Positions 2,359-24,599 of a stretch of DNA of 64,000 nt are shown here, piece after piece. Source of the stretch: Gordonia westfalica (lineage in GTDB: Bacteria > Actinomycetota > Actinomycetes > Mycobacteriales > Mycobacteriaceae); assembly GCF_900105725.1 (NCBI RefSeq), contig NZ_FNLM01000030.1, positions 1-64,000 of the forward strand, given 5' to 3'. The number at the start of each line of letters is the position of its first letter. Positions within the stretch are counted from its first letter, which is position 1. The notes below the pieces were generated by a model. It was not told the origin of the DNA and did no database searches. It saw only the letters and a list, made by a program, of their open reading frames with translations. The position numbers and the translations under genes were made by a program.

Positions 2359-3089
2359 ATGTTGATGAACCGCGTGGAGACTGTTCTGGTGAACTCGCCG
2401 CCCCGGCGGTGGCTGCAGCGCTACGAGGCGCGTGTATTGACCGCGTTGGGCGGACGGACCCCGGGAGCGCACGTTGCTGAGCTGGGGTGCGGGTCGGGTT
2501 ACGGCACCCGGCTGATCCTCGACGAGTTCGGCGCCGCGCGCGTCGACGCGGTAGACCTCGATCCGGCGATGATTTCTCGCGCTCGCCACCGCCTGCGCCG
2601 ACACACCGGCAGGGCACACCTCGCCCGAGGTAGCGCAACGGACCTGCGTTCAGCATTTCACGACGTCGGCGGAGGGCAGAACGGTACTTATGACGCAGTC
2701 TTCGACTTCGCGATCATTCACCACATCCCGAACTGGCGGAAGCCTTGGACGAGGTGGCCCGCGTACTCAAACCGGGTGGGCGGTTCTTCTTTGACGAGGT
2801 CACCGCGACCGCCCTTGCTCGGCCGACCTACCAAGTGCTGTTTGACCATCCGAGCGAGGATCGGTTCACCGCCGGTGAATTCCTGCACGAGTTGTCCCAC
2901 CACGGTCTCGACGTCGGCGAGCGGTGGCAAACACGCATCGGCGGGATTACCTGTTGGGTGTCGCCACACGGCAATAGTGAGGTCGACGTGGTGGCTCGGC
3001 GGTGGCCCACCACGAAGACGTTTCGAACCTTCTCTCACGCGGTGCAGCGGGTAAAGGAGCGCACAGCCTTCAACTACTATCGTGGTTAG
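2359..3089 (+). pseudogene. SAM-dependent class I methyltransferase, frameshifted
   Basis: The first half carries motif I (VAELGCGSGYGTRL), the acidic end of beta-2 (VDAVDLDPAMI) and a motif IV-like segment (YDAVFDFAIIHHIPNW). After about 2742 the frame changes and continues with DEVARVLKPGGRFFFDEV, the family's post-motif segment. A single missing G in the CGGAAG run explains the switch. Start ATG 2359 has GGAGGG 9 bp upstream. The fold is the ubiquinone/SAM methyltransferase type; the substrate cannot be told. It is divergent from the CmtR-like gene and is followed by the L,D-transpeptidase gene. Whether the frameshift is real is unknown. Confidence 0.75.
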
Positions 3090-3090
3090 T
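3073..3090. promoter_or_regulatory. Degenerate BlaI-type operator before the L,D-transpeptidase
   Basis: The site reads ACTAC-N8-TTAGT, one mismatch from the ACTAC-N8-GTAGT dyad found six more times in this window. It lies at the very end of the methyltransferase remnant, about 40 bp before the chosen start of the transpeptidase gene, a suitable place for an operator. Confidence 0.35.
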
Positions 3091-7154: not shown

Positions 7155-7169
7155 AGCAACCACGCCGCG

Positions 7170-8732
7170 TCAGGTGCGTTGGCGTGATCTCCACGTGCGT
7201 ACAACCAGTGCCGCCAGGACCGCGGCAGCACAGATCCCTTCTCCTGCTGCTCCGATCCGCGTCGCCAGAGTCGTCGTTGTCCCCAGCGGCACCCGCGCGA
7301 TGAGGACATCAGGGGTGAACAGCGCTGTGCGTTGTGCAACGGTCCCATCAGGCTCGATGATCGCGCTCACCCCACTGGTTGCTGCGATGACCACCGCCCT
7401 ACCGTGCTCGACTGCCCGCACCCGCGACATCGCGAGTTGCTGGTAGGTCATCTCGGTGCGCCCGAACGTCGCGTTGTTGGTCGGTACGGCGATCAGTTGC
7501 GCGCCGGCGCGCACCGAGTCGGTCACCAGATCGTCGAACGCGACTTCGTAGCAGGTCGCCACCGCCACCGGTACACCTGCAAGATCGACGACACCATTGC
7601 CCGTGCCAGGAACGAAGTTGCCGGCCCGGCTGGCGTAGGACGACAGCTGTGTCATCAGTTCCCGCAGCGGCAAGTACTCCCCGAACGGCACCAGCTGACG
7701 TTTGTCGTGCTCCTGACCAGGACCGGTAACCGGATCCCACACCACCAACGTGTTGCGGGACGTGCCGTTGCTCCCGGCGATCACCGCTCCCACCAGGATC
7801 GGCACCCCGATCGCCCGCGCGGCACGATCAATCTGCGCCGCAGCATCGCGGTTACCGAACGGGTCGATGTCGGATGAGTTCTCCGGCCACACCACCACAT
7901 CGGGACGCACGACCCGCCCAGAGCGGACCTGCTCTGCCAGGTCGAGGGTGCGTTGGACATGATTGTCGAGCACTGCGCGCCGCTGAGCATTGAAATCCAA
8001 CCCCAGCCGCGGCACATTGCCCTGCACCACTGCCACCGTCACCGACCGCTCCCCCGCGTCATCGCCTCCCCCCGCGGGCGTCATCGTCCACACCAGCAGT
8101 CCAATCACGGCAACCGTGGCCGCAGGCCCGGCCAACGTTTGAGGCTGCCGGCGGACCACCGCCCCCGCCGCCGCGGCCAGGGCCGCGCCGAGCAGCACCA
8201 CAACGAACGACAACCCCGGCGCGCCGGCCAGCGCCGCCAACGGCAGGAGCAACCCGTCGGGTTGACCGAATGCGATTCGGCCCCAAGGGAAACCGCCAAA
8301 CGGTATCCGGGAACGAACAGCTTCGACTGCCACCCAGGCGCCTGCCAACCACACCGGCGCGCCGCGCCATCTGCCCAGTGCCGCTGCCAACACCCCGAAG
8401 ACCCCGAACGCCACCGCCTGGACTGCTGCCAAGACCAGCCACGGCACCGCACCCACATAGATGCCGACCCACGGCAGCAAAGGCACGAAAAACCCCAGCC
8501 CAGCCAGATAGCCATAGCCGGATGCCGCCCACAACGACCGCCCCCGCAGCGTCACCACCAGAACCGCGATAGCCAACGGGGCCAGGAACCACAGCTGACG
8601 CGGAGGGAAACTCACATACAGCATGCCGCCGGCGCCGACCGCAGCAGCGCTGCGCAACACCGGATGAAGCATCGGTGGAAACGACGCACCGGCCCGCCGA
8701 GCACCCGAAGAACTCACCACCGCGCACCGCAC
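7170..8732 (-). CDS. lnt: Apolipoprotein N-acyltransferase Lnt
   Basis: A 520-residue integral membrane enzyme that N-acylates the diacylglyceryl-cysteine of mature lipoproteins. About eight hydrophobic segments come first. A nitrilase-like periplasmic domain follows with the catalytic triad visible: Glu in VVWPENSSD (about 284), Lys in HDKRQLVPFGEYLP (about 342) and Cys in VATCYEVAF (about 392). A final TM segment ends the protein. It converges on ctpG with a 15-bp gap and diverges from the DsbA gene across a BlaI-type operator. GTG 8732 is used; ATG 8672 is an alternative. With lspA and a lipoprotein Ldt nearby, the island carried its own lipoprotein maturation enzymes. Confidence 0.92.
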   Translation of the reverse strand: MRCAVVSSSGARRAGASFPPMLHPVLRSAAAVGAGGMLYVSFPPRQLWFLAPLAIAVLVVTLRGRSLWAASGYGYLAGLGFFVPLLPWVGIYVGAVPWLVLAAVQAVAFGVFGVLAAALGRWRGAPVWLAGAWVAVEAVRSRIPFGGFPWGRIAFGQPDGLLLPLAALAGAPGLSFVVVLLGAALAAAAGAVVRRQPQTLAGPAATVAVIGLLVWTMTPAGGGDDAGERSVTVAVVQGNVPRLGLDFNAQRRAVLDNHVQRTLDLAEQVRSGRVVRPDVVVWPENSSDIDPFGNRDAAAQIDRAARAIGVPILVGAVIAGSNGTSRNTLVVWDPVTGPGQEHDKRQLVPFGEYLPLRELMTQLSSYASRAGNFVPGTGNGVVDLAGVPVAVATCYEVAFDDLVTDSVRAGAQLIAVPTNNATFGRTEMTYQQLAMSRVRAVEHGRAVVIAATSGVSAIIEPDGTVAQRTALFTPDVLIARVPLGTTTTLATRIGAAGEGICAAAVLAALVVRTWRSRQRT

Positions 8733-8800
8733 CCCTCACCGAAGTTTGTCGAGCGCACCGATCCGCCCGCGGGCGCCCGGCCGGGGCCGCGCGCCTGTAA

Positions 8801-8818
8801 ACTACTAGCTAACGTAGT
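8801..8818. promoter_or_regulatory. BlaI-type operator, lnt/dsbA divergent promoter
   Basis: A perfect ACTAC-N8-GTAGT dyad, followed by a further AGTAGT direct repeat. It lies between the divergent lnt and DsbA-family genes and so could control both. Confidence 0.7.
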
Positions 8819-8842
8819 AGTAGTTTGACGGGAGTGAACATC

Positions 8843-8893
8843 GTGGCAGGTCAAGCGCTGAAGGTTCGACTCGAGTCGAGGGTGCCCCGGTGA
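8843..8893 (+). CDS. Possible 16-residue leader peptide before the DsbA gene
   Basis: A GTG codon with GGGAG about 9 bp upstream opens a 16-codon frame (VAGQALKVRLESRVPR). Its TGA overlaps the GTG start of the DsbA gene in a GTGA junction. That geometry is typical of translational coupling in mycobacteria. The peptide resembles nothing I know. It may only serve to deliver ribosomes to the next start, or it may be chance. Confidence 0.3.
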   Translation: MAGQALKVRLESRVPR

Positions 8894-9534
8894 GCCGCAA
8901 CGTCAAGATCTCACTCGCCGTGGTGATCGTGTTCTGCCTGGCGCTGACAGTGGTGTTCGTGGTGTCCCGGGCCGGCGACAGCGAACAGGCCGACGCCCAG
9001 GCGAGCATGACGGTACGGGATGATTCCCCACGTCTATCGACTCCGACCGAGTCCAAGGCAACATTCGTGGAATTCCTGGACTTCGAATGTGAAGGGTGCG
9101 GGGCGGCATACCCGGCGGTGGAGCAGCTTCGCCAAACATACGGCGATCAGGTCACGTTCGTGGTCCGCTACTTCCCGCTCCCCGGGCATTTCAACGCTGA
9201 CCGCGCGGCACGGGCCGTTGCCGCCGCGGCCGAGCAAGGCCAGTTCGAACCGATGTACCGCAAGATGTTCGACACCCAACGCAGCTGGGGTGAGCAGCGG
9301 GTACCGCTGGACGATCTGTTCTTCTCCTATGCCCAGGAGCTCGGTCTGGACATGGATCGATTCGCCGCCGACTACAACTCGCAGGCCACCCGCGAACTCA
9401 TCGACCGCGATGTCGCTGACGGCAAAGCGCTAGGTGTCACCGGCACACCCACCTTCTTCATCAACGACGAACTCATCAAACCCGAGAGCTATGACGATCT
9501 GAGCTCGGCGCTCGAATCCGCACTACGCCAGTGA
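8890..9534 (+). CDS. DsbA-family membrane-anchored thiol:disulfide oxidoreductase
   Basis: A 214-residue exported protein with one N-terminal hydrophobic anchor (residues 5-25) and a thioredoxin-fold domain. The redox motif is FECEGCGAAYP (CxxC), and the cis-proline loop is VTGTPTFFIN. It likely introduces disulfides into exported proteins. Its stop overlaps the VKOR-family gene start by 4 nt, and VKOR homologues re-oxidise DsbA-like partners in mycobacteria, so the pair forms a complete oxidation pathway. A BlaI-type operator stands upstream. GTG 8890 was chosen because of the overlap with the upstream short frame. Confidence 0.85.
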   Translation: MSRNVKISLAVVIVFCLALTVVFVVSRAGDSEQADAQASMTVRDDSPRLSTPTESKATFVEFLDFECEGCGAAYPAVEQLRQTYGDQVTFVVRYFPLPGHFNADRAARAVAAAAEQGQFEPMYRKMFDTQRSWGEQRVPLDDLFFSYAQELGLDMDRFAADYNSQATRELIDRDVADGKALGVTGTPTFFINDELIKPESYDDLSSALESALRQ

Positions 9535-10172
9535 CCGTCCCACCACCACCCCGCCAGGCCTCGCCATCCTCGCCCACGGCGGCAGCTACACGATTCCCAG
9601 TGTCTCCGCGACTGCTCGCGTGGATCCTTGCGGTCTGCGGAAGTATCGGGCTCATCGCTGCGTTCACGCTGACGGTTGAAAAGTTCGAACTGGCAACCGA
9701 TCCGGCGTACACACCGACCTGCAGTATCAACCCGATCGTCAATTGCGGATCGGTGATGGACACCCCCCAGGCGGTCGTCTTCGGGTTTCCCAACTCACTG
9801 ATCGGAATTGCCGGCTTCTCCGCGCTGATTGCTGTCGCGGTCCTGATGGGGAGCCGGCCGCCCACCTGGGTCATGATCGGGCTGCAGAGTGGGTTGACGG
9901 GTGCGGTGGTGTTCGTCCATTGGCTGATCTTCCAGAGCCTGTACCGAATCAACGCGCTCTGTCCGTACTGCATGGCCGTGTGGGTGGTTGTCGTGGTTGC
10001 CTTTTGGTATGTGAGCCTGCGCAATGCCGACCATTTCTGCCCACCCGGGACAGCGCGCCGAGCCCTCGATGCGATCCTCACGGTGCACACCGTGGTACCG
10101 CTGGTGTGGGTGCTGGCAGTGATCGCCCTGATCGCCCACCGTTTCTGGTGGTACTGGTCGACGCTGATGTGA
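9531..10172 (+). CDS. Vitamin K epoxide reductase (VKOR) family protein
   Basis: A 213-residue membrane protein with about five hydrophobic segments. The loop cysteines are in TCSINPIVNCGSVM and the quinone-site pair is the CxxC in NALCPYCMAVW. Bacterial VKOR passes electrons from a DsbA-like partner to menaquinone. The partner gene lies directly upstream with a 4-nt overlap. The C-terminal extension (RRALDAILTVHTVV) adds a further membrane helix. The family call is secure, and partnership with the upstream protein follows from operon structure. Confidence 0.88.
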   Translation: MTVPPPPRQASPSSPTAAATRFPVSPRLLAWILAVCGSIGLIAAFTLTVEKFELATDPAYTPTCSINPIVNCGSVMDTPQAVVFGFPNSLIGIAGFSALIAVAVLMGSRPPTWVMIGLQSGLTGAVVFVHWLIFQSLYRINALCPYCMAVWVVVVVAFWYVSLRNADHFCPPGTARRALDAILTVHTVVPLVWVLAVIALIAHRFWWYWSTLM

Positions 10173-10270
10173 CACCTCCGGGGCAGCGCCCGGCCCGAGA
10201 CGGCAGACTCGCGTAGCAGAGATCCGCACTCGCGCAGACCGCAGGTGTGGTGTGACGCCGATGTGATCCC

Positions 10271-11212
10271 TCACGGGTGATGGGTGGCTAACGCTTCCTC
10301 GTGGTGGCGCTGGGCGCTGGTCTCGAGCTGGAAGGTGGAATGCTCGAAGGAGATGGCGAAGTGGGTCGCCACGCAGGTCCGGATGTCATCCAACATGGTG
10401 GGGGCGTGGCCGTCCTGGAAGCAGTCGTCATCGACCACAATGTGAGCGCTGATGATCGGTAGGCCCGTGGCCACCGTCGATGCGTGAAGGTCGTGCACGT
10501 CGTGCACACGGTCCATCTCGAGGATGTGGGCCCTGACGTCGTCGAGATCGATCCCTTTCGGGGTGAATTCCATCAGCACCCGCGTCGTCTCGGCCATGAG
10601 TTTGAGGGCGCGGGGTGCGATGAGCGCGGCGATGAACAACCCGGCCAGCGCGTCAGCTTGTTGGAAACCGGTGGTAGCGATGACGATTGCGGCGACGATC
10701 ACACCCAGCGATCCCAGTGCGTCGTTGAGGACCTCCAGAAACGCCGCTCGCATGTTGAAGTTGGCGCCGCGTCCCGAGGCGAGCACGAGCATGGCGACGA
10801 TGTTCGCCACGAGTCCGATGACTCCGAAGAGCAGGAGTTCGGTCGAGGGCACCTCGGGTGGCGAGAACAGTCGTCGTACGCCTTCGACAGCAGCGTAGAG
10901 GCCCACAGCGAGCAGCAGCGAGGCCTGCCCCAGAGCGGCGATGACCTCGATGCGCCGCAGTCCCCAGGTGCGGGTTTTGTTGACCGGGCGGTGCATCACG
11001 GTTGCTGCGACGAGCGCGACCGCTAAACCGATCGCATCTGTCGCGGCGTGCGCGGTGTCGGTCAGTAGCGCCAGACTTCCCGTGATCACCGACCCGACAA
11101 GCTGGGCCACGACAATGATCCCCGTCAGAGCAAACGCGATCGCCAACCGGACACGCAGCGACGAGTCGCTGGATGCGGGGTCGGTTGGTCCGTGATTGTG
11201 TCCGGCTCCCAT
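10271..11212 (-). CDS. Cation diffusion facilitator (CDF) metal/H+ antiporter
   Basis: A 313-residue exporter of the CzcD/ZitB type. His-rich ends (GAGHNHG at the start, QRHHEEALATHH at the end) flank six TM helices. TM2 and TM5 carry the metal-site residues: LLTDTAHAATDAIGL (an HxxxD arrangement) and LEVLNDALGSLGV. The cytoplasmic C-terminal domain has VHDVHDLHASTV. It exports Zn or related divalent metals into the periplasm. It stands alone, with a palindromic site upstream (11261-11288) typical of ArsR-family control. The exact metal is not determined by sequence. Confidence 0.9.
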   Translation of the reverse strand: MGAGHNHGPTDPASSDSSLRVRLAIAFALTGIIVVAQLVGSVITGSLALLTDTAHAATDAIGLAVALVAATVMHRPVNKTRTWGLRRIEVIAALGQASLLLAVGLYAAVEGVRRLFSPPEVPSTELLLFGVIGLVANIVAMLVLASGRGANFNMRAAFLEVLNDALGSLGVIVAAIVIATTGFQQADALAGLFIAALIAPRALKLMAETTRVLMEFTPKGIDLDDVRAHILEMDRVHDVHDLHASTVATGLPIISAHIVVDDDCFQDGHAPTMLDDIRTCVATHFAISFEHSTFQLETSAQRHHEEALATHHP

Positions 11213-11260
11213 GCGTCGTACTCCCTCTCATCCACACCCAGATAGCTACGCTGTCCACAT

Positions 11261-11288
11261 ATATCAATACATGCGCATGTGACTATAT
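11261..11288. promoter_or_regulatory. Palindromic operator upstream of the CDF gene
   Basis: A perfect 12-bp palindrome (ACATGCGCATGT, 11269-11280) sits inside a wider imperfect dyad with ATAT-rich outer arms (ATATC...CTATAT). Size and composition resemble 12-2-12 sites bound by SmtB/NmtR/KmtR-type sensors. One of the two CmtR-like or CadC-like proteins in the window, or a host sensor, may act here. Confidence 0.5.
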
Positions 11289-11470
11289 GACAGACCGGGG
11301 CGGAACGGAACCGGCGGATCACGTCACGACTGAATCGGGATGTGCTGAGATGGCCCGACGTCGGCGGCGTGACGCCGGTGGTGTTGGGTCTCGTGACGGT
11401 GCGGTGACCGGAAGCCGGTGGTGTTGGGTCCGTCGAACCGGCGCCGCCACTACAGGCCTCAGATGGGTAG

Positions 11471-12283
11471 TCAGATGGGTAGTTGGGTATCGGTGATGAA
11501 CGCGTCGCGGACCCACACGATGAATTGATCCCACAGGCCGGTGATCAAGGCGATACCTACCGCGATCATCATGGCGCCGCCGACGATCTGGATCATGCGG
11601 GCGTGGGTCCGCAACCAGCCGAGGCTGCGCAACGCCCATGCCGAGGAAAACGCAAGCACGACAAAAGGAATACCAAGGCCCGCGCAGTACGCCACGATCA
11701 GCGCGACGCCCTTGGCTGCGGTGGCACCTTCGGTGCCGCTGGCCGTCGCAATGACCGCCGCGAGCGTGGGCCCTAGGCATGGGGTCCACCCGAGTGCAAA
11801 GACCCCGCCGAGCAGCGGAGCGCCGGCGATGTTGGAGACGCGGCGGGGGGCGAACCGTCGTTCCTGTTGCAGTGCCGGCACCAGCCCGATGAACACCAGG
11901 CCCATGATGATGGTGACCACGCCGCCGATGCGTTGGAGGACTTCACGATTCACCACGAAAGTGGTGGTGACTCCGAGTACGGTGGCGGTCGCTGCCACGA
12001 AGACCACCGTGAAACCGAGGACGAACAGGCCTGCGGCGAGCGCCACGCGCGAACGACCCCGCTTGTTCGGCTCCCCCACCGACACCGCAGGCGCCTCGGC
12101 GCCGACCACGCCAGCCAGATACGACAGATACCCCGGAACGAGGGGGACCACGCACGGTGAGGCGAACGACACCAGCCCGGCGATCACACACGCAAGCAGC
12201 GCCAGCAGGAGCGGACCGCTGGCGACGAGGTCGGCAAACGTCTCGCCGACCGCAGCCTGCACTTCGACCGACTGCGGGGTCAT
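11471..12283 (-). CDS. ccdA: CcdA/DsbD-type thiol-disulfide transmembrane transporter
   Basis: A 270-residue, six-TM protein that carries reducing equivalents across the membrane. The redox cysteines are in [19 protein letters not shown] (TM1) and [15 protein letters not shown] (TM4). Its start codon overlaps the stop of the TlpA-like gene (ATGA), so it is the electron donor encoded with its acceptor. Such pairs reduce apocytochrome or copper-chaperone cysteines, consistent with the nearby oxidase genes. Confidence 0.9.
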
Positions 12284-12873
12284 TGGGGTTGTGCCACAGG
12301 CTCAGCGAGGACTCGCTGAACTGTTGACCCGAGTTCGTCGGCGGTAATGGCCTTGAGGAACACCGCGGCCGGACGGTGGTCGCGGTCGAGCACGATGGTG
12401 GTCGGCACCACCGACGTTGGGGTGGTCAGCGCAGCCAGGGTCAGACCGGCAAAGTCGTAGATCGAGGGAAAGGCGACCTTTCTGTCGATCATGAAGTCCT
12501 TCGCCGCTTGCCGGTTATCGCGCAGATTGATACCGAGGAACTCGACTCCCGAGGCCTTGTTCTGGGCGTAGACATGCTCGAGGTCGTCGGCTTCTCCCCG
12601 GCAGGGTCCACACCACGAACCCCAGACGTTGATGACGACGACTTTGCCTGCGAAGTCGTCGAGTCCGATGGTCTGGTCGGTCACCACGTCAGGGCCGGAG
12701 ACGTCAGCGATCCGCTGACGGCTCGAGGGCGGATCGTAGGTGATGACCGTCTGCCCGCCGGGCGAGACGAACTGAAAGGTTCCCCCCTGCGCAACGGCGT
12801 CGTCGCCAGCGCTACCACAACCCGACGCTACCCACGGCACCACGCATATCAGCGCCAGGACCGCCGCCCGCAC
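12280..12873 (-). CDS. TlpA/ResA-like thioredoxin lipoprotein
   Basis: About 197 residues. GTG 12873 follows AGGGGAGAAGG and opens a lipoprotein signal peptide ending SGC. The thioredoxin domain shows [15 protein letters not shown] (CxxC) and the cis-Pro segment [14 protein letters not shown]. It is an exported thiol reductase that would be kept reduced by the co-transcribed CcdA. A BlaI-type operator lies about 50 bp upstream, beside a TTGACA -35-like hexamer (12954-12959, minus strand). Role in cytochrome or CuA-site maturation is inferred from the neighbours. Confidence 0.87.
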
Positions 12874-12922
12874 CGCGGATACCCTTCTCCCCTGCTGCAC
12901 CAGCACTCCTCGACGTTGATCT

Positions 12923-12940
12923 ACTACGCAGCGTGGTAGA
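12923..12940. promoter_or_regulatory. BlaI-type operator upstream of tlpA-ccdA
   Basis: ACTAC-N8-GTAGA, one end base off the perfect dyad, embedded in a longer GATCTAC...GTAGATC inverted repeat. It lies between the TTGACA hexamer and the lipoprotein start, so binding would block transcription. Confidence 0.65.
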
Positions 12941-13110
12941 TCACCATTCGAATTGTCAACATGACCATAGTTTTTGTGACATCCACCGACCGGAACCCCA
13001 CTTCTCGCGACGTGCATTTTGCGGCGTCACCTCGTGTAAGAGATGCGCTCACCTGCAATTACCCTGTGTTCAGGGCGAGTTTCCGGCTTGGCAGTCACTG
13101 CGCATCCGCA

Positions 13111-13128
13111 ACTACATCACCTAGTAGT
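13111..13128. promoter_or_regulatory. BlaI-type operator upstream of the M23 peptidase gene
   Basis: A perfect ACTAC-N8-GTAGT dyad in the 340-bp region between tlpA and the secreted M23 peptidase gene, 163 bp before the chosen start. Nothing else was recognised in this intergenic stretch. Confidence 0.65.
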
Positions 13129-13291
13129 AGAGGCCCGCGATTGCGATGGGCACTCAATCAGATCGTGTTACTGCTGTGACCTGTGGGGCCTATGGTTCGA
13201 ACGGAGGGCTGCCGATCGTGGCCTCATGTGCACCTGGCGTGTGGTGCTGAACGTCAGTGCGTCGCGCCCGTCTCCGGAAGGTCTCGCTGGC

Positions 13292-14224
13292 ATGCCTATG
13301 TCGTCCCTCACCCGCCGCTGCGGCGCTCCACGGCCCTGTCTGAGACTGGGGGTCGCGGGAATCGTTGCTGCGGTTCTGCTGAGCTTCTCAATTGACGCTC
13401 GAGCGCGAGCCGACGCCGATGCCACCCACGTGACTCAGCAGTTCGCCCAACTGGTCGCCGAGACGATCTCGGCGACACTGGGCGGCCCGGCGATGGGAAC
13501 CCTCGCCGACGAGATCCGAACAGTCAGCACATGTCTGGCCGATCGAGCGCGCCCAGTCGAGCCGCCAGTGCCAGCCGAGGATCCCATCACTGCGGTGGGA
13601 TGCTTCGCCGCCGTGCTCGGCGCGGGACGAGCAGCCGCCGAACTGATTGTCGACGCGCTGCCGATCGGGCGGCTGCTGGCGCTTCTGGCTTTCGAGATGC
13701 GTCCCCACGATCCCGCGGCTGCGCACCCGGCACCAGCTGGTCCACCCGTCTATTCGTCGCCGTCGCCGGGGTCGGTGGTCGCTCCCACGAACGGCCGAGT
13801 GACCTCCACCTTCGGTGACGGCCGCGGCCATCAGGGTATGGACATCGGCAACGACCTGGGGGCACCGATTTTCGCGGTCACCGACGGCGAAGTGATCAAC
13901 TCGGGGCCAGCTGAAGGCTTCGGGTTGTGGGTACGCATCCGGCATGCCGACGGAACAATCACGACCTACGGCCACAACGACGACAATCTCATCGACGCGG
14001 CAGCGCCGGTCACGGTCGGTCAACCCATTGCCACGGTGGGCAATCGCGGTAACTCGACCGGGCCTCATCTGCACTTCGAGGTTGCTGATGCATCCGGCGC
14101 CGCCCTCGACCCGGTGCGATGGCTCGCCGAACGCGGCGTCAGTCTGCCCTCCGACAGCGACGCCGAACCTACTATCACGCCCAACGAACCGTCGGGCACC
14201 GGAAGCGCAGACCTCTGGCGGTAA
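13292..14224 (+). CDS. Secreted M23-family metallopeptidase
   Basis: About 310 residues. ATG 13292 has GGAAGG 10 bp upstream and opens a signal peptide (hydrophobic core GVAGIVAAVLLSFSI). The C-terminal domain is a LytM-type zinc endopeptidase fold: GHQGMDIGNDLGAPIFAV supplies the first His and Asp, and GPHLHFEV the HxH pair. Such enzymes cut peptidoglycan cross-bridges or act as regulators. The middle region is Pro-rich. It is monocistronic with a BlaI-type operator upstream, which ties a wall hydrolase to the copper regulon. An earlier ATG at 13226 is possible. Confidence 0.82.
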   Translation: MPMSSLTRRCGAPRPCLRLGVAGIVAAVLLSFSIDARARADADATHVTQQFAQLVAETISATLGGPAMGTLADEIRTVSTCLADRARPVEPPVPAEDPITAVGCFAAVLGAGRAAAELIVDALPIGRLLALLAFEMRPHDPAAAHPAPAGPPVYSSPSPGSVVAPTNGRVTSTFGDGRGHQGMDIGNDLGAPIFAVTDGEVINSGPAEGFGLWVRIRHADGTITTYGHNDDNLIDAAAPVTVGQPIATVGNRGNSTGPHLHFEVADASGAALDPVRWLAERGVSLPSDSDAEPTITPNEPSGTGSADLWR

Positions 14225-14337
14225 GGGTGGGCGCGGCGCACGGCCGCGGCGGACCGGTCGGGCCGATCTCAATGAGGGAGGCGACCTTTCGTCGCGGTCC
14301 TGTCGCCTCCCGGTTGCGACTCGGAATTCCAGTATCA

Positions 14338-14376
14338 ACTATGCTACCTAGTAGTTAATCGACTACAGTCCGTAGT
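14338..14376. promoter_or_regulatory. Double BlaI-type operator upstream of ctaD
   Basis: Two dyads lie in tandem: ACTAT-N8-GTAGT at 14338-14355 and ACTAC-N5-GTAGT at 14362-14376. They precede ctaD by about 80 bp. The second has a shorter spacer than the others, so the first is the better match to the shared site. Confidence 0.65.
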
Positions 14377-14456
14377 AACGGCCCGGGAAGTCGCACGCAC
14401 GATGCGCGTGTTGCTTCGATCAGGGCCGCCATTTTTTCAAGTCAGATGGAGGCCTC

Positions 14457-16247
14457 ATGACCGCGGTGTCCCCGCGCCCGCCCGAGGTGGTCGCCACGCG
14501 GCCCTATCCCGAGCGGCGAAAGGCCAAAGGGTCATTCATCTACACGATGCTGACCACGACCGATCACAAGCTGATCGGCATGATGTACATCGTCGCGTGC
14601 TTCGGGTTCTTCCTCATCGGCGGACTGATGGCGCTGCTGATGCGCGGAGAACTCACGACGCCGGGCATGCAATTCCTCTCGACCGAGCAGTACAACCAGC
14701 TGTTCACCATGCACGGCACGATCATGCTGCTGATGTATGCCACCCCCATCGTGATCGGCTTCGCCAACTTCGTACTGCCCCTGCAGATCGGCGCTCCCGA
14801 CGTCGCCTTCCCGCGGCTCAACGCACTGGGTTTCTGGCTGTTCGTCTTCGGTTCGACCATCGCGATTGCCGGCTTCATCACCCCAGGTGGCGCCGCGGAC
14901 TTCGGCTGGACCGCCTACACCCCGCTCAGCGACGCCATCCACTCACCCGGCGTCGGCTCCGACATGTGGTTCCTCGGACTGACCGTGTCTGGTCTGGGCA
15001 CCATCCTGGGCGCGGTCAACATGGTCACCACGGTCATCTGTCTGCGCGCACCGGGAATGACGATGTTCCGTATGCCGATCTTCACGTGGAACATCCTGGT
15101 CACCAGTGTGCTGATCTTGCTGGTGTTCCCGCTGCTCACCGCGGCATTACTCGGCGCCGAAGTCGACCGCCAGTTCGGCGCGCATCTGTTCGATCCGGCC
15201 AACGGCGGCGCCATTCTCTGGCAGCACATGTTCTGGTTCTTCGGTCACCCCGAGGTGTACATCATCGCGCTGCCGTTCTTCGGCATCGTCTCCGAAATCT
15301 TCCCGGTCTTCAGCCGTAAACCGTTGTTCGGGTACTCAGGACTGGTCTACGCCACCCTCGCCATCGCCGCCCTGTCGGTCGCGGTGTGGGCACACCACAT
15401 GTACGTCACTGGCGCCGTGCTGTTGCCGTTCTTCTCCTTCATGACCTTCCTGATCGCGGTACCCACGGGCGTGAAGTTCTTCAACTGGATCGGCACAATG
15501 TGGCGGGGCCACATGACCTTTGAAACCCCGATGCTGTTCTCGGTCGGCTTCATGGTCACCTTCCTGTTCGGCGGACTCACCGGTGTGCTCCTGGCCAGCC
15601 CGCCGATCGACTTCCAACTCTCCGACAGCTACTTCGTGGTCGCCCACTTCCACTACGTGCTGTTCGGCACGATCGTGTTCGCCACCTACGCCGGCATCTA
15701 CTTCTGGTTCCCGAAGATGACCGGACGACTGCTCGACGAACGCTTGGGCAAAATCCATTTCTGGCTGACGTTCATTGGCTTTCACCTCACCTTCTTGGTG
15801 CAGCACTGGCTCGGAGCCGAAGGCATGCCCCGCCGATACGCCGACTACCTGCCCTCAGACGGCTTCACCACGCTCAACATCATCTCCACCGCCGGCGCGT
15901 TCGTCCTCGGCGTCTCGACACTGCCGTTCCTGTGGAACGTTTTCCGCAGCTACCGCTACGGCGAGGTCGTCACCGTCGACGATCCATGGGGCTTCGGCAA
16001 CTCCCTGGAGTGGGCCACCAGCTGCCCGCCGCCGCGCCACAACTTCACCGAACTGCCCCGCATCCGGTCGGAGCGTCCGGCGTTCGAACTGCACTACCCG
16101 CATATGGTGGAGCGGCTGCGCGCCGAAGCCCACGTCGGCACACGGCACGGTGAACCCAGCGAGGCGGCCGAAGAAGTCCGCCGTGCGCCGCTGACCACCG
16201 GAGACCACGAAGCATCTACAGATCCCGACCCGGAGAGCCGACCGTGA
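14457..16247 (+). CDS. ctaD: Cytochrome c oxidase subunit I (aa3 type)
   Basis: A 596-residue, 12-TM catalytic subunit. Heme a and CuB ligands are visible: His in [15 protein letters not shown] (the His-Tyr pair), VWAHHMY, and the two His of [10 protein letters not shown]. The K-channel and heme pocket segments are conserved, so it looks functional. GGAGG lies 4-8 bp before ATG 14457. Subunits II, III and IV are not in the window, so this copy must use the host's partners or act as a copper-stress replacement. It is preceded by BlaI-type operators and overlaps a small membrane protein gene by 4 nt. The tail is longer than usual and acidic. Confidence 0.93.
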
Positions 16248-16516
16248 GCAACTACCCCTACCCTGCCCTCGACCAGGCCGTCCCGCGAACGCGCCGCCCG
16301 CTGACCGTTCCGCGGTGGTTCGCCATCCTCGCAGTCGGCTACACCGCGGTGATGACCTTTGCGCTGACCCTGCTCGCAGGTTCTGTCCTCGCTCAGGGCA
16401 CTCCCCTGCTGCTGTGGCTGATCGCGGCGACCGCGGCAACGTGTGCGGCCCGCGGTGCGGCCGCGGTCGCGACCCGCGCAATGCAACCAGCACGAGGCCG
16501 TGCGGCGCGGCCGTAG
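16244..16516 (+). CDS. Small two-helix membrane protein, oxidase-linked
   Basis: A 90-residue protein whose GTG start overlaps the ctaD stop in a GTGA junction. Two hydrophobic segments (about residues 25-45 and 53-72) suggest a hairpin in the membrane, with a basic C-terminus. Size and position resemble small accessory subunits of heme-copper oxidases, but no specific family is recognised. Function is inferred only from coupling to ctaD. Confidence 0.65.
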
Positions 16517-16897
16517 CCGAAGCACCTCACCACCGACCCCCGCGGCCGCGGAGAGACCCGTCGCTACGCCGCGTCAGGCGAGACCACGAGCCACCGGGCC
16601 TTTCCCAAGATCACCGGGCCTGACCGAGAGCGAATCGGCTGGTGGAGCAAGGGTTAGCGGTCCCGGTCGAGCATCGGTTGGCGCTGCTCAGCACCGCACA
16701 CCATGTATTTGGTACCGAACACGCAGGGTGTCGCGATAGCGCGACTGACTGGGTGTGCCGCCCGCGCAGGCAGCTGCGATCGACACGCTGAGACGAGCAC
16801 CCGGTGAACAGCCTCCGCTACCGGTGGCGCAGCCAGGCGCGACACCCACGGGCGTCGAGCCGCAGCCACTGAGGAGCGAACAGGGCGTGACCGGGAC
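16517..16897. other. Intergenic stretch without a recognised gene
   Basis: About 380 bp between the oxidase pair and the convergent M56-protease gene. No convincing start, coding pattern, promoter or strong hairpin was seen. Confidence 0.5.
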
Positions 16898-17830
16898 TTA
16901 TGCGGTAAGCCCATGCACGAGAACCGACAACACCGGAAGTGCCGCAGCCGTACACAACGCAGCACCCAGGAGGGGCAACACGCTCGCCGCAGCGTAGGTC
17001 GACTTCGTCGGCTCGATCGCGCCGTTCTCGAGCATTAGCAATCGGTAGCGCGTCGAGTGCGGCATGGGGGTCCCGGGGCCTACACCCTGGCCGGTCACAT
17101 GCGCGAGTGCGCTGCGCACGGCAGCCGTGCTGGTCACCCGAGCAGCCGACATGTCGGCATCTGCTTCGATCAAGGCCGCGACTGCCGTCGGCGCCCGGCG
17201 AAACAGCGGCACAAAGGGCAGAGCACGTGCCATCACATCGCAGACCGCCAGAACGCGGTCATGCCGCGACCTCAGATGGGCGAACTCGTGCGCCAGTACT
17301 GCGGCCCGCGCCTCGGCGGGCACGTCTGTGCGCAGCGCACTTGTTGCCACAACGAAACCACTGCGCCCGCCGACGCAGTACGCCATGGGGTGGGGATGAT
17401 CGATCCAGAGCACGTCGGGGGTGTCGGGTTCGGTACTGCCCACCACAGCAACGACATCGCGATGAAGACGGTGCACGCGATGCACATCGCGGGTGTGACG
17501 AGCGCACGACATCGCGGTGCGAGCGACCGCGGCGATCACCACCACGGCCACGGCAATGCCATACACCTGGCTGAAATCGTCGCGCACCGCGTGCAGGACA
17601 GCTCCCGCGCACCGAGCCAAGGTGTCAACGAAGCGTTCGGCCGGCGGCGGATCCGGCCACAACGCCGACAGCGCCGACAGAATCAACAATCCCACCGCCG
17701 TGGCGATACTGCTGACCCAGGCGGTGATCAGTACCCGCGGTGACCATCGCTGGGGCAATCGGTCGAGAACGTAGGGACCCAACACGCCCAGCACGGCCGC
17801 GCCCACCAGGTGGGCCAATGCGACGCTCAC
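16898..17830 (-). CDS. M56-family (BlaR1-like) membrane metalloprotease without sensor domain
   Basis: A 310-residue membrane protein. Hydrophobic segments lie at the N-terminus (about 5-55) and near 90-105, and a last one at the C-terminus. The zinc protease motif is in VLAHEFAHLRSRHD (HExxH) with a downstream acidic ligand (LIEADADMSAAR). It lacks the penicillin-binding sensor of true BlaR1, so the signal is probably sensed by other parts. It follows the BlaI-type repressor by 4 bp. In the family, the protease inactivates BlaI on signal. Here the operators suggest a copper, redox or wall signal, not a beta-lactam one. Confidence 0.87.
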   Translation of the reverse strand: MSVALAHLVGAAVLGVLGPYVLDRLPQRWSPRVLITAWVSSIATAVGLLILSALSALWPDPPPAERFVDTLARCAGAVLHAVRDDFSQVYGIAVAVVVIAAVARTAMSCARHTRDVHRVHRLHRDVVAVVGSTEPDTPDVLWIDHPHPMAYCVGGRSGFVVATSALRTDVPAEARAAVLAHEFAHLRSRHDRVLAVCDVMARALPFVPLFRRAPTAVAALIEADADMSAARVTSTAAVRSALAHVTGQGVGPGTPMPHSTRYRLLMLENGAIEPTKSTYAAASVLPLLGAALCTAAALPVLSVLVHGLTA

Positions 17831-17834
17831 ACTC

Positions 17835-18206
17835 TCAGCGCTTCCTCGGACGATCCGTCCGCGTCCGGGACAGGTGCTCGCTGAGGACCGCGCGCTCCTC
17901 GGGAGTAACCATCCGGGCGAAGTGCATCAGCACCGCCGTCGAATCGCCGCTGGCATCGAGCACCTGCCGCAGTGTCTGCGACGTCGCCTCCTCCCGCGAC
18001 TGCAACGGGAAGTACCGATAGGCGCGGCTGATCTTCTCGCGACCCGCGAAGCCCTTCTTGTGCAGATTGGTGACCACGGTCAACACCGTCGTGTACGCCA
18101 AGTCGCGGTCGGCCAGCGCATCGACGATGTCGTGCACACTCATCGCCGCCGAAGCGCCCCACAGCACATCCATCACCGCGCGTTCCAACGAACCCAACTG
18201 AGTCAC
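17835..18206 (-). CDS. BlaI/MecI/CopY-family repressor
   Basis: A 123-residue winged-helix dimeric repressor starting GTG 18206. The DNA-binding region has SLERAVMDVLWG, the family N-terminal signature, and the recognition helix LAYTTVLTVVTNLHKKGF. The C-terminal half supplies dimer helices. It diverges from the copper ATPase gene across an ACTAC-N8-GTAGC dyad, and the same dyad occurs before five other transcription units in this window, so it is the obvious candidate to bind all of them. The partner M56 protease is encoded 4 bp downstream. No CopY-type CxC metal motif is present, so induction is likely by proteolysis. Confidence 0.9.
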   Translation of the reverse strand: MTQLGSLERAVMDVLWGASAAMSVHDIVDALADRDLAYTTVLTVVTNLHKKGFAGREKISRAYRYFPLQSREEATSQTLRQVLDASGDSTAVLMHFARMVTPEERAVLSEHLSRTRTDRPRKR

Positions 18207-18251
18207 CGTCGCCTGCCTGATCGCCTCGTATTTGCTGCCAGTCTAGAACAA

Positions 18252-18269
18252 ACTACCCTGCTTAGTAGC
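18252..18269. promoter_or_regulatory. BlaI-type operator, blaI/copA divergent promoter
   Basis: ACTAC-N8-GTAGC lies midway between the divergent repressor and copper ATPase genes. It is placed for autorepression and for control of the ATPase. Confidence 0.7.
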
Positions 18270-18365
18270 CGAAGCCTGGTTGCCTCAGCCCTGCTGCCAC
18301 TGCCCCACGGGGGCCCTCGCATCTTGCGGTGCCGGACCCTCACCGCCTACTGAAAGCGCCCACCC

Positions 18366-20614
18366 GTGACCGACCTCGTTGACCACACGCACCCAACACG
18401 CCGCATCCAACTCGATGTGGGCGGGATGACCTGCGGTGCGTGCGCAGCTCGGGTGGAACGCAAACTCAACAAGCTCGACGGCGTGCGCGCCTCGGTCAAC
18501 TACGCCACACGGCGAGCCACCGTGGAACTCGATACCCACGCACACGTCGCCGATGCTATCGACGCCGTGCACACAGCAGGGTATGCGGCTGCGGAACTGT
18601 CCGAGCAGGCCCCTGCCGTCAACGAAGATTCAGCGACTGCGAAGGCACTGTTCACCCGGCTGATCGTCGCGCTAGCCCTGTTCGTGCCCCTGGCCAACCT
18701 CTCCGTGGTGCTTGCTGTCGTCCCCGACCTTCGCTTTCCCGGCTGGCAAGCAGTGTTGGTGGCGCTTGCCGCGCCGGTGGTGACCTACTGCGCGTGGCCC
18801 TTCTACCGCACCGCGGTGCGCACGTTGCGGACCGGCGTGGCCACGATGGACACCCTCGTCTCGCTGGGAGTGCTGGCCGCGACCGCACTGTCGGTGTACT
18901 CGATGTTCTCGGCCGAAGCGACCTCGACCGCAGGCCAGGGGGTGTGGTCGGCAATCTTTTCCAGCGACTCCATCTATCTCGAAGTTGCAGCCGGTGTCAC
19001 CGTCTTCGTGCTGGCAGGACGCTACTACGAGGCGCGTGCCCGGGCACAAGCTGTTCAAGCACTGACGGCGCTGGCCGCTCTGCGTGCCACCGACGCCCGA
19101 GTCGAGTGCGCAGGGGACACGACCATGCTCATACCCCTCGCGGAACTCAAAGTGGGGCAACGACTCATCGTGCTGCCGGGAGAGACCATTCCATCAGATG
19201 GGCAGGTGATCGAGGGCGCCGCCAGTGTGGACCTCAGCGCCATGACCGGTGAGACGACGCCGGTTCAGGTGTCAGCCGAGCAAGGCTCCACCGCCGTCGG
19301 GGGCACGACGTGCCTCGACGGGCGACTACGCGTCGAAGTCACCGCAGTCGGTGACGACACCCGCCTGGCCGAGATGATCGCGCTGGTCGACAGCGCGCAG
19401 ACAGCCAAGGCTCGCGCTCAACGCGTCGCCGACCGTATCGCCGCGATCTTCGTTCCGTGTGTCATCGCCCTAGCCGCAGCCACTCTCGTGGGTTGGTCGC
19501 TCACCGGGGCGTCATGGGAGCACGCCGTGAGTGCCGCGGTGGCCGTGCTGATTATCGCCTGTCCGTGCGCCCTGGGCCTGGCCATGCCCATGGCGTTGGT
19601 GATCGCTACCGGGCGAGGCGCTCAACTGGGCATCTTCCTCAAAGGACACGCCGCGTTGGAACTGTCCGGGACGATCGATGTGGTGGTCTTCGACAAGACC
19701 GGCACCCTCACCAACGGGCAGCCACACGTCACCGGCGTGTACACCGTCGACGACGACAGTGCCGAGCTGATCCTGGACTGGGCGGCGACACTCGAGCAGC
19801 ACACCAGCCACCCCATCGCCACCGCTATCGCTGCCGCGGCCGGTTCGCAGTCGCTTGCCGCACCGGTCGACGAGGTGGTCACCGACGTTGGTAGCGGCGT
19901 GCGAGGGGTGATCGACGGTGTGAAGGTGCAGGTGGGTTCCCCGGCATGGATCGCCAGTAGCGCCGCGGTGCCCGCCGTGATCGACGCGCGGCGCGCTGAC
20001 ATCGAGCGCTCTGGGGCACCGCGGTCTATGTCGCAGCCGATGATGCAGTCCGGGGCCTGATCGACATTCGGGATGGCATCAAACCCTCTGCCCGCCAGGC
20101 GGTCGATGAGTTGCACCGCATGGGAATTCGCACGTTCCTGGTCACCGGTGATAACGCCGGCGCAGCGCAGCGCACCGCGGAGCAGGTCGGCATCGACGAC
20201 GTGATCGCCGGGGTGCTCCCGGCCGAGAAAGTGGCCATCATCGACAACGTGCGCAGTAGTGGCGCCGGTGTGGCGATGGTCGGCGACGGCATCAACGACG
20301 GGCCTGCACTCGCCTCGGCTGATCTGGGCATTGCGATCGGACGCGGCACCGATGTTGCTATCGGCGCCGCCGACATCGTGTTAGTGCGCGATGACCTCAC
20401 CGCCGTCGCTCTGGCGCTGCAACTCGCCTCGGCCACACGACGCACGATGCGCACCAATCTGGCATGGGCGTTCGGCTACAACCTCGCCGCGCTGCCGCTG
20501 GCTGCCGCTGGACTGCTCAATCCTCTGATCGCCGGGGCCGCAATGGCTTTGTCATCGTTCTTCGTCGTCTCCAACAGCCTGCGTTTGCAGAACTTCGCGC
20601 GTATAGACCGCTGA
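18366..20614 (+). pseudogene. P1B-1 copper-exporting ATPase (CopA/CtpV type), one frameshift
   Basis: A Cu(I) efflux ATPase. The N-terminal HMA domain has GMTCGACAARVERKL. TM segments follow, then TGET (about 295), the copper-type CPC in IIACPCALGLAMP (about 398), DKTGTLT (about 443), and after the break [12 protein letters not shown]. The frame fails near 20010: reading one frame gives a stop at 20060, while the other continues [13 protein letters not shown] into FLVTGDN. One missing base in a G-run restores the full protein of about 750 residues. It is divergent from blaI and under the same operator. If the frameshift is real, the key copper pump of the island is dead. Confidence 0.82.
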
Positions 20615-22617
20615 GGGTGACAGAGGCTGGGGCTGGGCCAACTGCGAGACCATCGCAGCGACGGTGTGGGAGGTGCCGGCATCAATGGCCGCGGACTCGG
20701 ACCGATCGGGTCGGCGTTCGGCACGCACCCACTGCGCCGACAGCACCACGCAAACCAGCACCATCGGAATCTCACTGATCACCGCAGCCACCACACCACC
20801 CACCCATTGCGTGCGAGCTAGATCGGGATTCCACGGCAGCTGCAACTGACTGTAGAAGGACTCCCGATCACCGTGGTGGAGGTCATCACCGCGATACCAA
20901 AGAAGGCATGAAAAGGCATCACGGCGAACAGCAGACCAAGCCGCGCCAGAAATGGTAACCGCCTGGGTCCAGGATCGATCCCCACAGTCACCCAGAAAAA
21001 CAGGTAGCCGGTGGCCAGGAACACCACGCTCATCACGACGTGCCCCCAGTGGTAGCGGACGAGGACGTCGAACACCGGTGTGAAGTACACCAGATACGAC
21101 GAGCCCACGAACAACGCGAACGCGGCAACCGGATTGAGCACCAGCTGCAGGCCCCGCGAGCTGAGCACGATCAGCAGCGCCCGCCGGCACGCCGCGCCAC
21201 CGGTGGTTCCGGTCGTCGGCAGCACCCTCAACAGCAAAGTGATCGGTGCACCACCCACCAGCAGGACGGGCGCGATCATGGTCAAAGCCGTGTGTTCGGC
21301 CATGTGCACACTGAACAGCGCGTTGCCGTAGGCTTTCAGCCCCGAGCTGGTGGACACCACCACCACAGCGCACCCCACCACCCACGACACCGTTCGCCGG
21401 ATCGGCCACCGGTGTCCACTTGCCCGCTCCCGCCGGGCGGCGACGACATACCCCACGGCACCCACCACCGCCGCCACACCCACCACGAGATCAACACGCC
21501 ACAGCGAAACCAGCGATACGACATCAGGCGGGCCAGGAAGGGAATAACCCAGGTAGACATCCCACGCCGTGAATGGGTGGGCAATCAACCCGGGTGCGAC
21601 CCTGGTGTCCATCACCGCCCAGCAGGCCACGGCCACCAGTGCGGTCCCCGCGGCAAGGACAGAAGCAGTTACCGGCGTCACCACACCCCGGCGCAAACGC
21701 ACAAGGTCGGCAATCACCAGCACCGTCAGTACAGCCACCAACAGGCCCGCGGCGCGACCGAACGCCGACGACCACACATCGGGAGTCCGCAGCAGCAGCG
21801 TCACAGCCACCGCGCCCGCCAGTGCCGTCACATCGGCGCCCAGGACGACGCCACCAACACGTCGGTCGGCCGCCTCGTCGATGGTCGCCGACCCCAGACC
21901 GCGAACCCGGTACCGGTCAGCCCACCGCAGCCCCACCGACAACGCCAAGCTCACCGCGAAGACGATCACCGCGCCGGTCGTGTAATCGTGGTCAGGTCCC
22001 TGCGCGGCATTGCCGACCACGGGCAGGGCGAGCACACAAACCGCCGCGGGAACCACCAGCGCCACCTGGGCCGACCACCGCAGCGACACCGAACCGATCA
22101 GCACCACAACACCCGCTGTCGCCACCACCAGCCACGCCAGCGCCGGCAAACTCACACTGAACGCGTAACCGACCTTGCCGCTCGAGACCATCGCGCCCAC
22201 GGACACACCAGTGGTGTCCGCGGCCGCGGTGAAAGCCATGAATAGCGCAACAACCACAGAGCACCCCGCGGCGCGACGGACGCGGCGAAACACCGGATAC
22301 ACCGCAGCGTCGATAAACCCCTGCGAGTCAGGTACAGCGGTGAGCACCACCGAGACCAGTTCCCCGAGCACCACCGCAGCCAATGCAAAGCCAACAAAAT
22401 TGCCCACCACATCGGCCACAGCTGTGCCCACCCCAGGATATGGATCCGCACTCTCGACGTAGCGACCGGCGCCGGACACCCAGGCATAGACCGCCAACAA
22501 CAGCATCAGCCCACCGAACAGCAACGGCGCCACCACCACCCGAAGAGAAATTGCGCGTTGCGGTCGCGACTCGATTGACGGGGTAACCGCCTCCGTCAAC
22601 GCCTTTGATTCACCCAC
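20552..22617 (-). pseudogene. CopD-CtaG fusion membrane protein, one frameshift near the C-terminus
   Basis: The first half resembles CopD/YcnJ copper-import-type membrane proteins. The second half is the CtaG/caa3_CtaG oxidase-assembly type, with SVHMAEHTALTMIAPVLLVGGAP, His ligands and about seven helices, for roughly 14 helices in all. Near 20870 a missing base (ATCGGGAGTCC) causes a stop at 20818. The other frame continues ESFYSQLQLPWNPDLARTQ and ends at 20552, overlapping the copA end by about 60 bp. GTG 22617 is chosen because a TAGCAT -10 ends 7 bp upstream, giving a leaderless start; the earlier ATG at 22641 lies inside the operator. The protein likely supplies copper to the oxidase. 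Confidence 0.75.
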
Positions 22618-22629
22618 CAACCGTATGCT

Positions 22630-22647
22630 ACTACTGCGCATAGTAGT
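22630..22647. promoter_or_regulatory. BlaI-type operator, copD-ctaG/DUF5134 divergent promoter
   Basis: A perfect ACTAC-N8-GTAGT dyad fills the short divergent region. It overlaps the putative minus-strand -10 (TAGCAT, 22625-22630) and lies 6 bp from the plus-strand GTG at 22654. Both genes would be repressed together. Confidence 0.7.
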
Positions 22648-22653
22648 TAACTC

Positions 22654-23331
22654 GTGAGGATCGAGGACCCGGTGATCGACGACGTACTGCTGCGGTGGAT
22701 CGTCACCGCCCTTTTCGCGGTGGGCGCTATCGACAGCATCCGCACCCTAGCCGCCCGTCGCACCGAGCTGAGACTGTCGATCACGCACTGCCTCATGCTC
22801 CTGATGTCACTGGCGATGATCGTCATGGCGTGGCCACAAGGCAATCAGCTACCACTCCTACCGCTGCAGCTGCTCTTCGCTCTCGGCACTGTGACCGCGG
22901 TCGTCTTCGCGATGCGGGGGACGGACGACCGCCTACTCCACGTCTATACCGCAGTGATGATGGCCTCCATGGTCTGGATGTACGCGGTGATGGGCTGGCA
23001 CACTGCCACCTCCGCAGCTCCTGCTACCGCTACCCCCGCCCACCACGGCAGCCCGCCGGGAACCGATGCCCTCAGCGACATGGCGCAGATGCACGGCGCC
23101 TCATCAAATCCCATGTGGATGGGGTCGGTCACGCTGCTACTTGTGCTCGGTTTCCTCGCGCTCACCATTTACTGCGCAGCCCGGTCGGTTCAGCTGCCAC
23201 GCACCGCGGCCCCAGCGCCACCAATGTCCAACGCTGTAACGACACTTCGCCGCCCCCGTCTCAGATCCCCGTGGATATGCCACGCATTGACCGCCGGTGG
23301 AACAGGCATCATGTTCGCAGCTCTGCTTTAG
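22654..23331 (+). CDS. DUF5134-type membrane protein
   Basis: A 225-residue protein with about five hydrophobic segments and a His/Met-rich loop (HHGSPPGTDALSDMAQMHGASS) between helices 4 and 5. It matches, from memory, the DUF5134 family often seen beside copper genes in actinobacteria. The His and Met residues could bind copper on the outer face. The final helix is followed by a stop after FAALL. It shares a divergent operator with the CopD-CtaG fusion. Function is unproven. Confidence 0.7.
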   Translation: MRIEDPVIDDVLLRWIVTALFAVGAIDSIRTLAARRTELRLSITHCLMLLMSLAMIVMAWPQGNQLPLLPLQLLFALGTVTAVVFAMRGTDDRLLHVYTAVMMASMVWMYAVMGWHTATSAAPATATPAHHGSPPGTDALSDMAQMHGASSNPMWMGSVTLLLVLGFLALTIYCAARSVQLPRTAAPAPPMSNAVTTLRRPRLRSPWICHALTAGGTGIMFAALL

Positions 23332-23399
23332 CAGGCCGCCCGAGCCTCAGTGGTGAGCCGCCATTCCCGGTACCACTGCCGCCAACGCGCAGCGCGAGC

Positions 23400-24105: not shown

Positions 24106-24121
24106 GAACTGATGTATTCAA
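24097..24121. promoter_or_regulatory. Dyad overlapping the cmtR start codon
   Basis: TACAT (24101-24105) and ATGTA (24112-24116), six bp apart, lie in an AT-rich setting across the ATG of cmtR. The site is a likely autoregulatory operator. Confidence 0.45.
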
Positions 24122-24588: not shown

Positions 24589-24599
24589 CGACGTCGACC

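Follow-up and report, generated by a model that had tools for sequence, protein, structure and literature searches.

Within the first 64,000 nucleotides of contig NZ_FNLM01000030.1 from Gordonia westfalica (hereafter the window), genes for copper handling, disulfide chemistry, cytochrome oxidase, lipoprotein maturation and cell-wall remodelling lie around a gene pair encoding a BlaI-family repressor and an M56-type membrane metalloprotease, and a short inverted repeat, a candidate operator with the core ACTA-N7-TAGT, recurs upstream of them. Positions 7000-24200 match the record of G. westfalica plasmid pKB1 (NC_005307.1, 101,016 bp) at 100.0%, placing the locus in Gordonia westfalica with pKB1 and not in a mycobacterial setting, as a preliminary description of this DNA had it. 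The same stretch is 91-96% identical to other Gordonia plasmids and partially matches many Rhodococcus plasmids. The first 32 kb of the window are 99.95% identical to the pKB1 record, with single-base indels at 15 positions; the first 3 kb hold 13 of these, and the region of about 20000-21000 is affected as well. The indel-altered genes (nramp, lspA, an ArsR gene, copA and copD/ctaG) are all whole in the pKB1 record.

Reading along the window, the centre of an exact operator core (3076..3090) lies 179 bp upstream of the start annotated for a gene encoding an LdtMt2-like L,D-transpeptidase with Big_10 and YkuD domains (3262..4434, + strand; Pfam, start per the pKB1 record). The apolipoprotein N-acyltransferase gene lnt (7170..8672, - strand; Pfam, pKB1 record), whose product retains the CYE motif, is divergent from a unit made up of a dsbA-like gene for a thioredoxin-fold protein with a CEGC motif (8890..9534, + strand; Pfam) and, as its second gene, VKOR (9600..10172, + strand; Pfam, pKB1 record), and the interval between lnt and dsbA holds an operator at 8804..8818 (18-bp form 8801-8818). 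On the - strand, ccdA (11471..12283; Pfam DsbD_TM, pKB1 record) and tlpA (12280..12900, motif CGPC; Pfam, pKB1 record) follow an operator with one mismatch to the core (ACTACGCAGCGTGGT, 12923..12937), centred 30 bp before tlpA. A further operator in the same interval (13111..13125; 18-bp form 13111-13128) lies between tlpA and an M23 peptidase gene (13430..14224, + strand; Pfam, start per the pKB1 record), and two exact cores (14338..14352 and 14362..14376) precede ctaD, encoding cytochrome c oxidase subunit I (14457..16247, + strand; Pfam). The genes for the 310-aa M56 protease (16898..17830) and the 123-aa BlaI repressor (17835..18206; Pfam) are both on the - strand, and an exact core (18252..18266) occupies the divergent interval between blaI and a copA-type P1B ATPase gene (18426..20614, + strand), which is split into two frames in the assembly and is a single gene in the pKB1 record. 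A copD/ctaG fusion (20553..22539, - strand), its frame altered in the assembly and likewise single in the pKB1 record, is divergent from a gene for a DUF5134 membrane protein (22654..23331, + strand; pKB1 record), with an operator at 22630..22644 (18-bp form 22630-22647) between them.

The seven places at which the preliminary description had noted an ACTAC-N8-GTAG(T/A/C) dyad (8801, 12923, 13111, 14338, 18252, 22630 and, as a degenerate copy, 3073) all exist. Allowing up to two mismatches, ACTAC-N8-GTAGT occurs 21 times in the window against 7.3 expected, a count reached by none of 100 shuffles, and its three exact copies in the 6.4-Mb genome are all in the window (8801, 13111 and 22630). Comparison of related loci, however, shortens the unit to a conserved core of 15 bp with a 5-nt spacer, ACTAy-N5-rTAGT when written more fully, often with an additional triplet and with a consensus of about aact-ACTAtgnnncaTAGT-agtt. 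The 18-bp dyad was rejected as the unit, being exact at three of the ten distinct plasmid sites compared with nine of ten for the 15-bp core, and the supposedly degenerate copy at 3073 contains an exact core at 3076. Seven exact cores lie in the window (3076, 8804, 13111, 14338, 14362, 18252 and 22630), whereas 20 shuffles gave a mean of 0.1; the second ctaD operator at 14362 and two sites outside the window, at plasmid contig positions 97105 and 100953, are additional to those described earlier. As the plasmid contig (108,969 bp) wraps onto its own start, a site at 104087 is a second reading of the site at 3076. The whole genome holds 21 exact cores, 20 of them distinct: ten on the plasmid contig (nine distinct), four in a chromosomal metal island and seven elsewhere. 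The core pattern read backwards occurs 192 times. Thirteen of the 20 distinct sites lie inside the two metal islands, about 63 kb in all (binomial P 6e-22), a value that is only descriptive, the island limits having been set by the sites themselves.

By the pKB1 record, the ten distinct plasmid sites fall in eight intervals that are all intergenic: exonuclease-like/M23 (the 97105 site, where the M23 start is uncertain), resB/nramp (the 100953 site), before ldt, lnt/dsbA, tlpA/M23 (two sites), before ctaD (two sites), blaI/copA and ctaG/DUF5134. Compared with pG135, whose island is 91% identical, pKB1 shows no change at any of 72 half-site positions, and 57 of 63 spacer positions and 620 of 729 flank positions are likewise shared; the sites at 3076 and 12923 are unchanged in pG135, the blaI/copA site is conserved, and the 13111 site retains its half-sites with an altered spacer.

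The operator recurs well beyond this plasmid. Eleven annotated plasmid loci, including pKB1, from Gordonia, Rhodococcus, Tsukamurella, Mycolicibacterium and Nocardia contain 3-9 exact cores each. In a GTDB set whose named loci were picked by this BlaI subfamily, 62 of the best 80 of 564 confirmed loci have at least one exact core; the 18 that have none are mostly from Micromonosporaceae, Pseudonocardia, Actinophytocola and Frankiales. Because CG-rich palindromes ranked high when every 5-mer inverted repeat was scanned, permuted half-sites were chosen as the control. That the repeats are chance palindromes in AT-richer intergenic DNA might be argued from the seven of 21 genome sites that are single copies elsewhere, three of them lacking an obvious target, but the counts refute this reading and leave it a negligible probability: shuffle means do not exceed 0.1 per plasmid locus, and across the 80 loci 11 permuted half-sites give 0-7 matches each against 200 cores. 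Within Gordonia, a plasmid-type BlaI (E <= 1e-25) is found in 11 of 59 genomes, and these average 14.1 core sites compared with 6.6 for the remaining 48 (P 6e-5; P 2e-4 with our own genome left out), although all 59 have some. Collectively, the data make well supported, at the level of sequence comparison, a multi-promoter plasmid regulon under a predicted 15-bp operator that tracks one BlaI subfamily across actinobacteria and stands before envelope genes. The combination of copper, disulfide, oxidase and cell-wall genes with a BlaI/M56 pair that had been proposed as one regulon recurs on plasmids and in named genomes of many actinobacteria. Among the literature titles listed, none concerned such a BlaI regulon, for copper or for envelope genes, in either Gordonia or Rhodococcus, a search in which most subscription journals were outside coverage.

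The plasmid repressor belongs to the BlaI/MecI family by its Penicillinase_R domain (PF03965, 87.4 bits against a cut-off of 22.6), and the closest solved structure is 2g9w (E 4e-17), which we take to be Rv1846c. Its residues His95-Phe96 align with residues 101-102 of Staphylococcus aureus BlaI, the cleavage position. We rejected a CopY-type direct copper repressor: the protein has no cysteine in 123 aa, hence no C-terminal Cys-X-Cys, and scores 30.5 bits with the CopY model, whose cut-off is 121.95. The protease carries HEFAH, E222 and D226; the HExxH...E motif is invariant across 15 aligned proteins and HExxH is present in 96 of 96 distinct homologues. The protein resembles the BlaR1 core, which its structural model appears to match best, and a predicted outer loop between helices 2 and 3 contains Cys74-x5-His80, a pair common among island M56 proteins and absent from three Rv1845c-type proteins. 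A homologue search gave 12 relatives at E <= 1e-8 among the top 7997 candidates, and the loop statistics were for that reason taken from the loci; a PDB search with the M56 sequence returned no match.

The absence of a penicillin sensor from the M56 protease, as first described, is borne out: no penicillin-binding, transpeptidase or beta-lactamase family was found in the 310-aa protein, whose model stops at the last helix. This bears on whether an ordinary BlaI system sensing beta-lactams or cell-wall damage has come to lie in a metal island by chance. The BlaI and M56 families and the L,D-transpeptidase, M23 and Rip targets would fit such a system, and PMC8457756 interprets its BlaI/BlaR1 operons as beta-lactam responses; yet besides the missing sensor, no beta-lactamase or penicillin-binding protein is named in the feature tables of the 11 plasmid loci, incomplete as these are, and we regard this explanation as very unlikely.

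To define the targets, genes were labelled by homology in 107 loci, or 100 after removal of duplicates, and a site was counted when it lay at most 350 bp upstream. In the 100 loci, sites precede CopC in 20/22 cases, ctaD in 16/19, DsbA in 17/21, Ldt in 9/14, Lgt in 4/6, ResB in 6/10, CtaG/CopD in 23/40, LspA in 5/9, Lnt in 9/17, TlpA in 10/24, Rip in 6/15, M23 in 21/55 and BlaI in 25/103, as well as 18 of 29 CDF genes, several of which are divergent from ctaG. Sites were rarer before CopA-type ATPases (2/25), CadA-type ATPases (0/7), CsoR (5/16), two-component genes (0/15), MCO (5/21) and DUF305 (3/38). Grouping the classes post hoc gave 164 of 281 genes with sites (146 of 252 without CDF) against 18 of 182; 98 of the 335 sites over all 107 loci have no labelled target. 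Copper exporters were accordingly rejected as the main targets. With exporters mostly outside it, the system looks like an envelope-maintenance regulon that adjoins efflux genes. The island copies of lnt, ctaD and the L,D-transpeptidase gene are extra, for a further lnt, a further ctaD and three relatives of the plasmid L,D-transpeptidase are found on the host chromosome.

We consider it probable that the island encodes a BlaI/M56 envelope-damage regulon supplying spare copies of metal-vulnerable enzymes. BlaI dimers would keep operator-bearing promoters off until the protease, which resembles the BlaR1 core but lacks its penicillin-binding domain, detects envelope damage through its short Cys-x5-His outer loop and cuts BlaI at the known cleavage-site position. 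Release of BlaI would then yield spare envelope enzymes, many of them thiol- or metal-dependent and likely targets of copper or other soft metals: an oxidase subunit with copper delivery (ctaD, copC, copD/ctaG), disulfide handling (dsbA-VKOR, tlpA-ccdA, resB), lipoprotein maturation (lgt, lspA, lnt) and wall remodelling (L,D-transpeptidase, M23, Rip). The adjoining metal efflux pumps would mostly answer to other regulators. Repression, M56 cleavage of BlaI and the signal, be it an excess or a shortage of copper or damage to the wall, are all steps that we infer.

Copper is a plausible candidate signal. Damage by it is plausible in light of published work: L,D-transpeptidases of E. coli and V. 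cholerae are inhibited by copper and by no other metal salt tested there (PMC11390936), and in E. coli copper also interferes with the acylation of lipoproteins (PMC6538781). The plasmid L,D-transpeptidase matches LdtMt2 (E 8e-120), but its catalytic motif is SNGC, as against SHGC in LdtMt2 and in the nearest chromosomal copy. Among 15 distinct Ldt proteins in the loci, three have SNGC, five SAGC and seven SHGC; for the ten that bear an operator, the numbers are three, four and three. One chromosomal relative naturally reads TNGC, and given this and the mixed motifs, loss of the SHGC histidine may be adaptive without amounting to a rule. Island L,D-transpeptidases with SNGC or SAGC were seen at window positions 3262-4434 and in loci L031, L032, L033, L035 and L062. 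A more specific version, which we entertain only tentatively, is that the protease senses soft-metal or thiol damage directly through Cys74 and His80, which would replace the penicillin-binding domain of BlaR1, and that the regulon supplies metal-tolerant replacements for enzymes that copper inactivates on the outer side of the membrane. The operator-linked L,D-transpeptidases of the SNGC type in Gordonia and the SAGC type in Williamsia would then be copper-resistant forms.

The same operator also occurs on the chromosome. Four exact cores lie in a chromosomal metal island at 223-258 kb of C34 (wider region C34:212000-268000, loci L013-L015), one of them at the promoter of an island-type BlaI 78% identical to the plasmid BlaI, with a second M56 gene about 31 kb away. 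The island further contains a phage-type integrase, a two-component system, P-type ATPases and DUF305. Elsewhere, cores stand before cydAB (L054 site 3776), before an operon for a membrane protein, a PCu(A)C copper chaperone and a DyP peroxidase (L050 site 3683) and about 0.6 kb before atpB (L056 site 3696). In a sample of 20 sites from 13 relatives, the core precedes cydAB (cytochrome bd) at eight (L145, L147, L149, L150, L151, L159, L160 and L161, near 3004) and a ctaA/COX15 gene at one (L158 site 3004).

These sites give weight to a different function, in which the regulon would serve copper shortage and oxidase assembly: copC/copD would import copper, ctaG, tlpA, ccdA and resB would build the haem-copper oxidase, ctaD would replace a subunit, and a failure of electron flow or of oxidase loading would release BlaI. 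The most consistent targets, copC and ctaD, and to a degree ctaG, fit this idea, as do the respiratory chromosomal cores. Oxidase assembly alone, however, leaves the L,D-transpeptidase, M23, Rip, lnt, lgt and lspA targets unexplained, and the islands lie amid efflux, arsenic and cadmium genes on plasmids; we consider this function rather unlikely.

The chromosomal cores at cydAB, the PCu(A)C operon and atpB, together with the 78%-identical chromosomal BlaI, also make it doubtful that the circuit is self-contained, as had been supposed, even though the plasmid has its own blaI and M56 genes. Taken further, a chromosomal BlaI, either the 78% paralogue or the Rv1846c-type paralogue of 39% identity, might be the main binder of the plasmid operators, with the plasmid BlaI contributing little. 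The gene for the former also bears the core at its promoter, and ACTAC-N5/8-GTAGT occurs upstream of four of six Rv1846c-type blaI genes checked in relatives; three of the six had been preselected for the site, leaving one of three among the rest. We judge this unlikely, since in Gordonia, Rhodococcus, Nocardia and others the island has kept a blaI and an M56 gene of its own, side by side in nine of 11 annotated plasmid loci, and no core was found in the 19-kb stretch around the third blaI of our genome. Cross-talk and plasmid ownership of the operators are compatible and not exclusive. In Mycobacterium tuberculosis, published BlaI targets include ATP synthase genes, Rv1303 and sigC (PMC8265638, PMC12565901); with the cores at cydAB and atpB, this suggests a role of chromosomal BlaI in respiration that the plasmid version may have extended to the envelope.

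Parts of this design are familiar from other systems. BlaI-BlaR1 and MecI-MecR1 of S. aureus share the repressor family, the BlaR1-core-like M56 protease and the aligned cleavage position; the plasmid system differs in that no penicillin-binding sensor was found in its protease, in its predicted envelope-redox, oxidase, lipoprotein and wall targets, and in its operator, ACTAy-N5-rTAGT. The Rv1846c/Rv1845c pair of M. tuberculosis offers the closest solved repressor, and Rv1845c is a short M56 partner without a sensor. The BlaI/M56 pair of our genome at locus L012, its M56 short and sensorless, is presumably of this type, and the Rv1846c regulon was reportedly described by Sala et al. in 2009. 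Unlike that pair, the plasmid system has a BlaI only 39% identical to the genome's own Rv1846c-type protein, a Cys-x5-His loop and a larger, different set of predicted targets. CopY/CopR are of the same superfamily and adjoin copA, but the plasmid BlaI lacks the CXC metal site and its operator is not TACA-NN-TGTA; the CopY consensus given in PMC7253601 is RNYKACANNTGTMRNY, which the plasmid core does not fit. For BlaI_0696 of Clostridium thermocellum, PMC8457756 describes inverted GTCTAT repeats 5 nt apart from DAP-seq, the same spacing as here, whereas its regulon comprises three operons interpreted as a beta-lactam response.

If the envelope-damage regulon is real, the BlaI/BlaR1 design of penicillin resistance would have a wide second use, as an envelope-damage response on actinobacterial metal-resistance plasmids. 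A defined operator and target list make testable what signal sensorless M56 proteases receive, which envelope enzymes are truly poisoned by metals in these bacteria, and whether chromosomal BlaI is a regulator of respiration more than a beta-lactamase repressor.

Apart from the eight cydAB sites, ten neighbours were scanned at nine of the other sampled sites in relatives (Usp, two glyoxalase-like, DJ-1, MOSC, MarR, hydrolase/methyltransferase, COX15-CtaA and one without a family), a mixture indicating that the core has uses outside any single theme. Three chromosomal sites may reflect chance or another regulator: 2446289 falls where a reading frame ends, 2834106 is followed by a DUF222 gene, and 4117339 (ACTAGTGCAACTAGT) is followed by an apparent toxin-antitoxin pair, judged by eye. 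On the plasmid, window positions 24387-26413 carry genes annotated in the pKB1 record as an AbiEi-type antitoxin and, after it, an AbiEii-type toxin. The core ACTACGCTGCGTAGT (L053 site 3519), by eye just before a putative lipoprotein gene adjoining radA, is present in eight of eight other Gordonia genomes among those listed.

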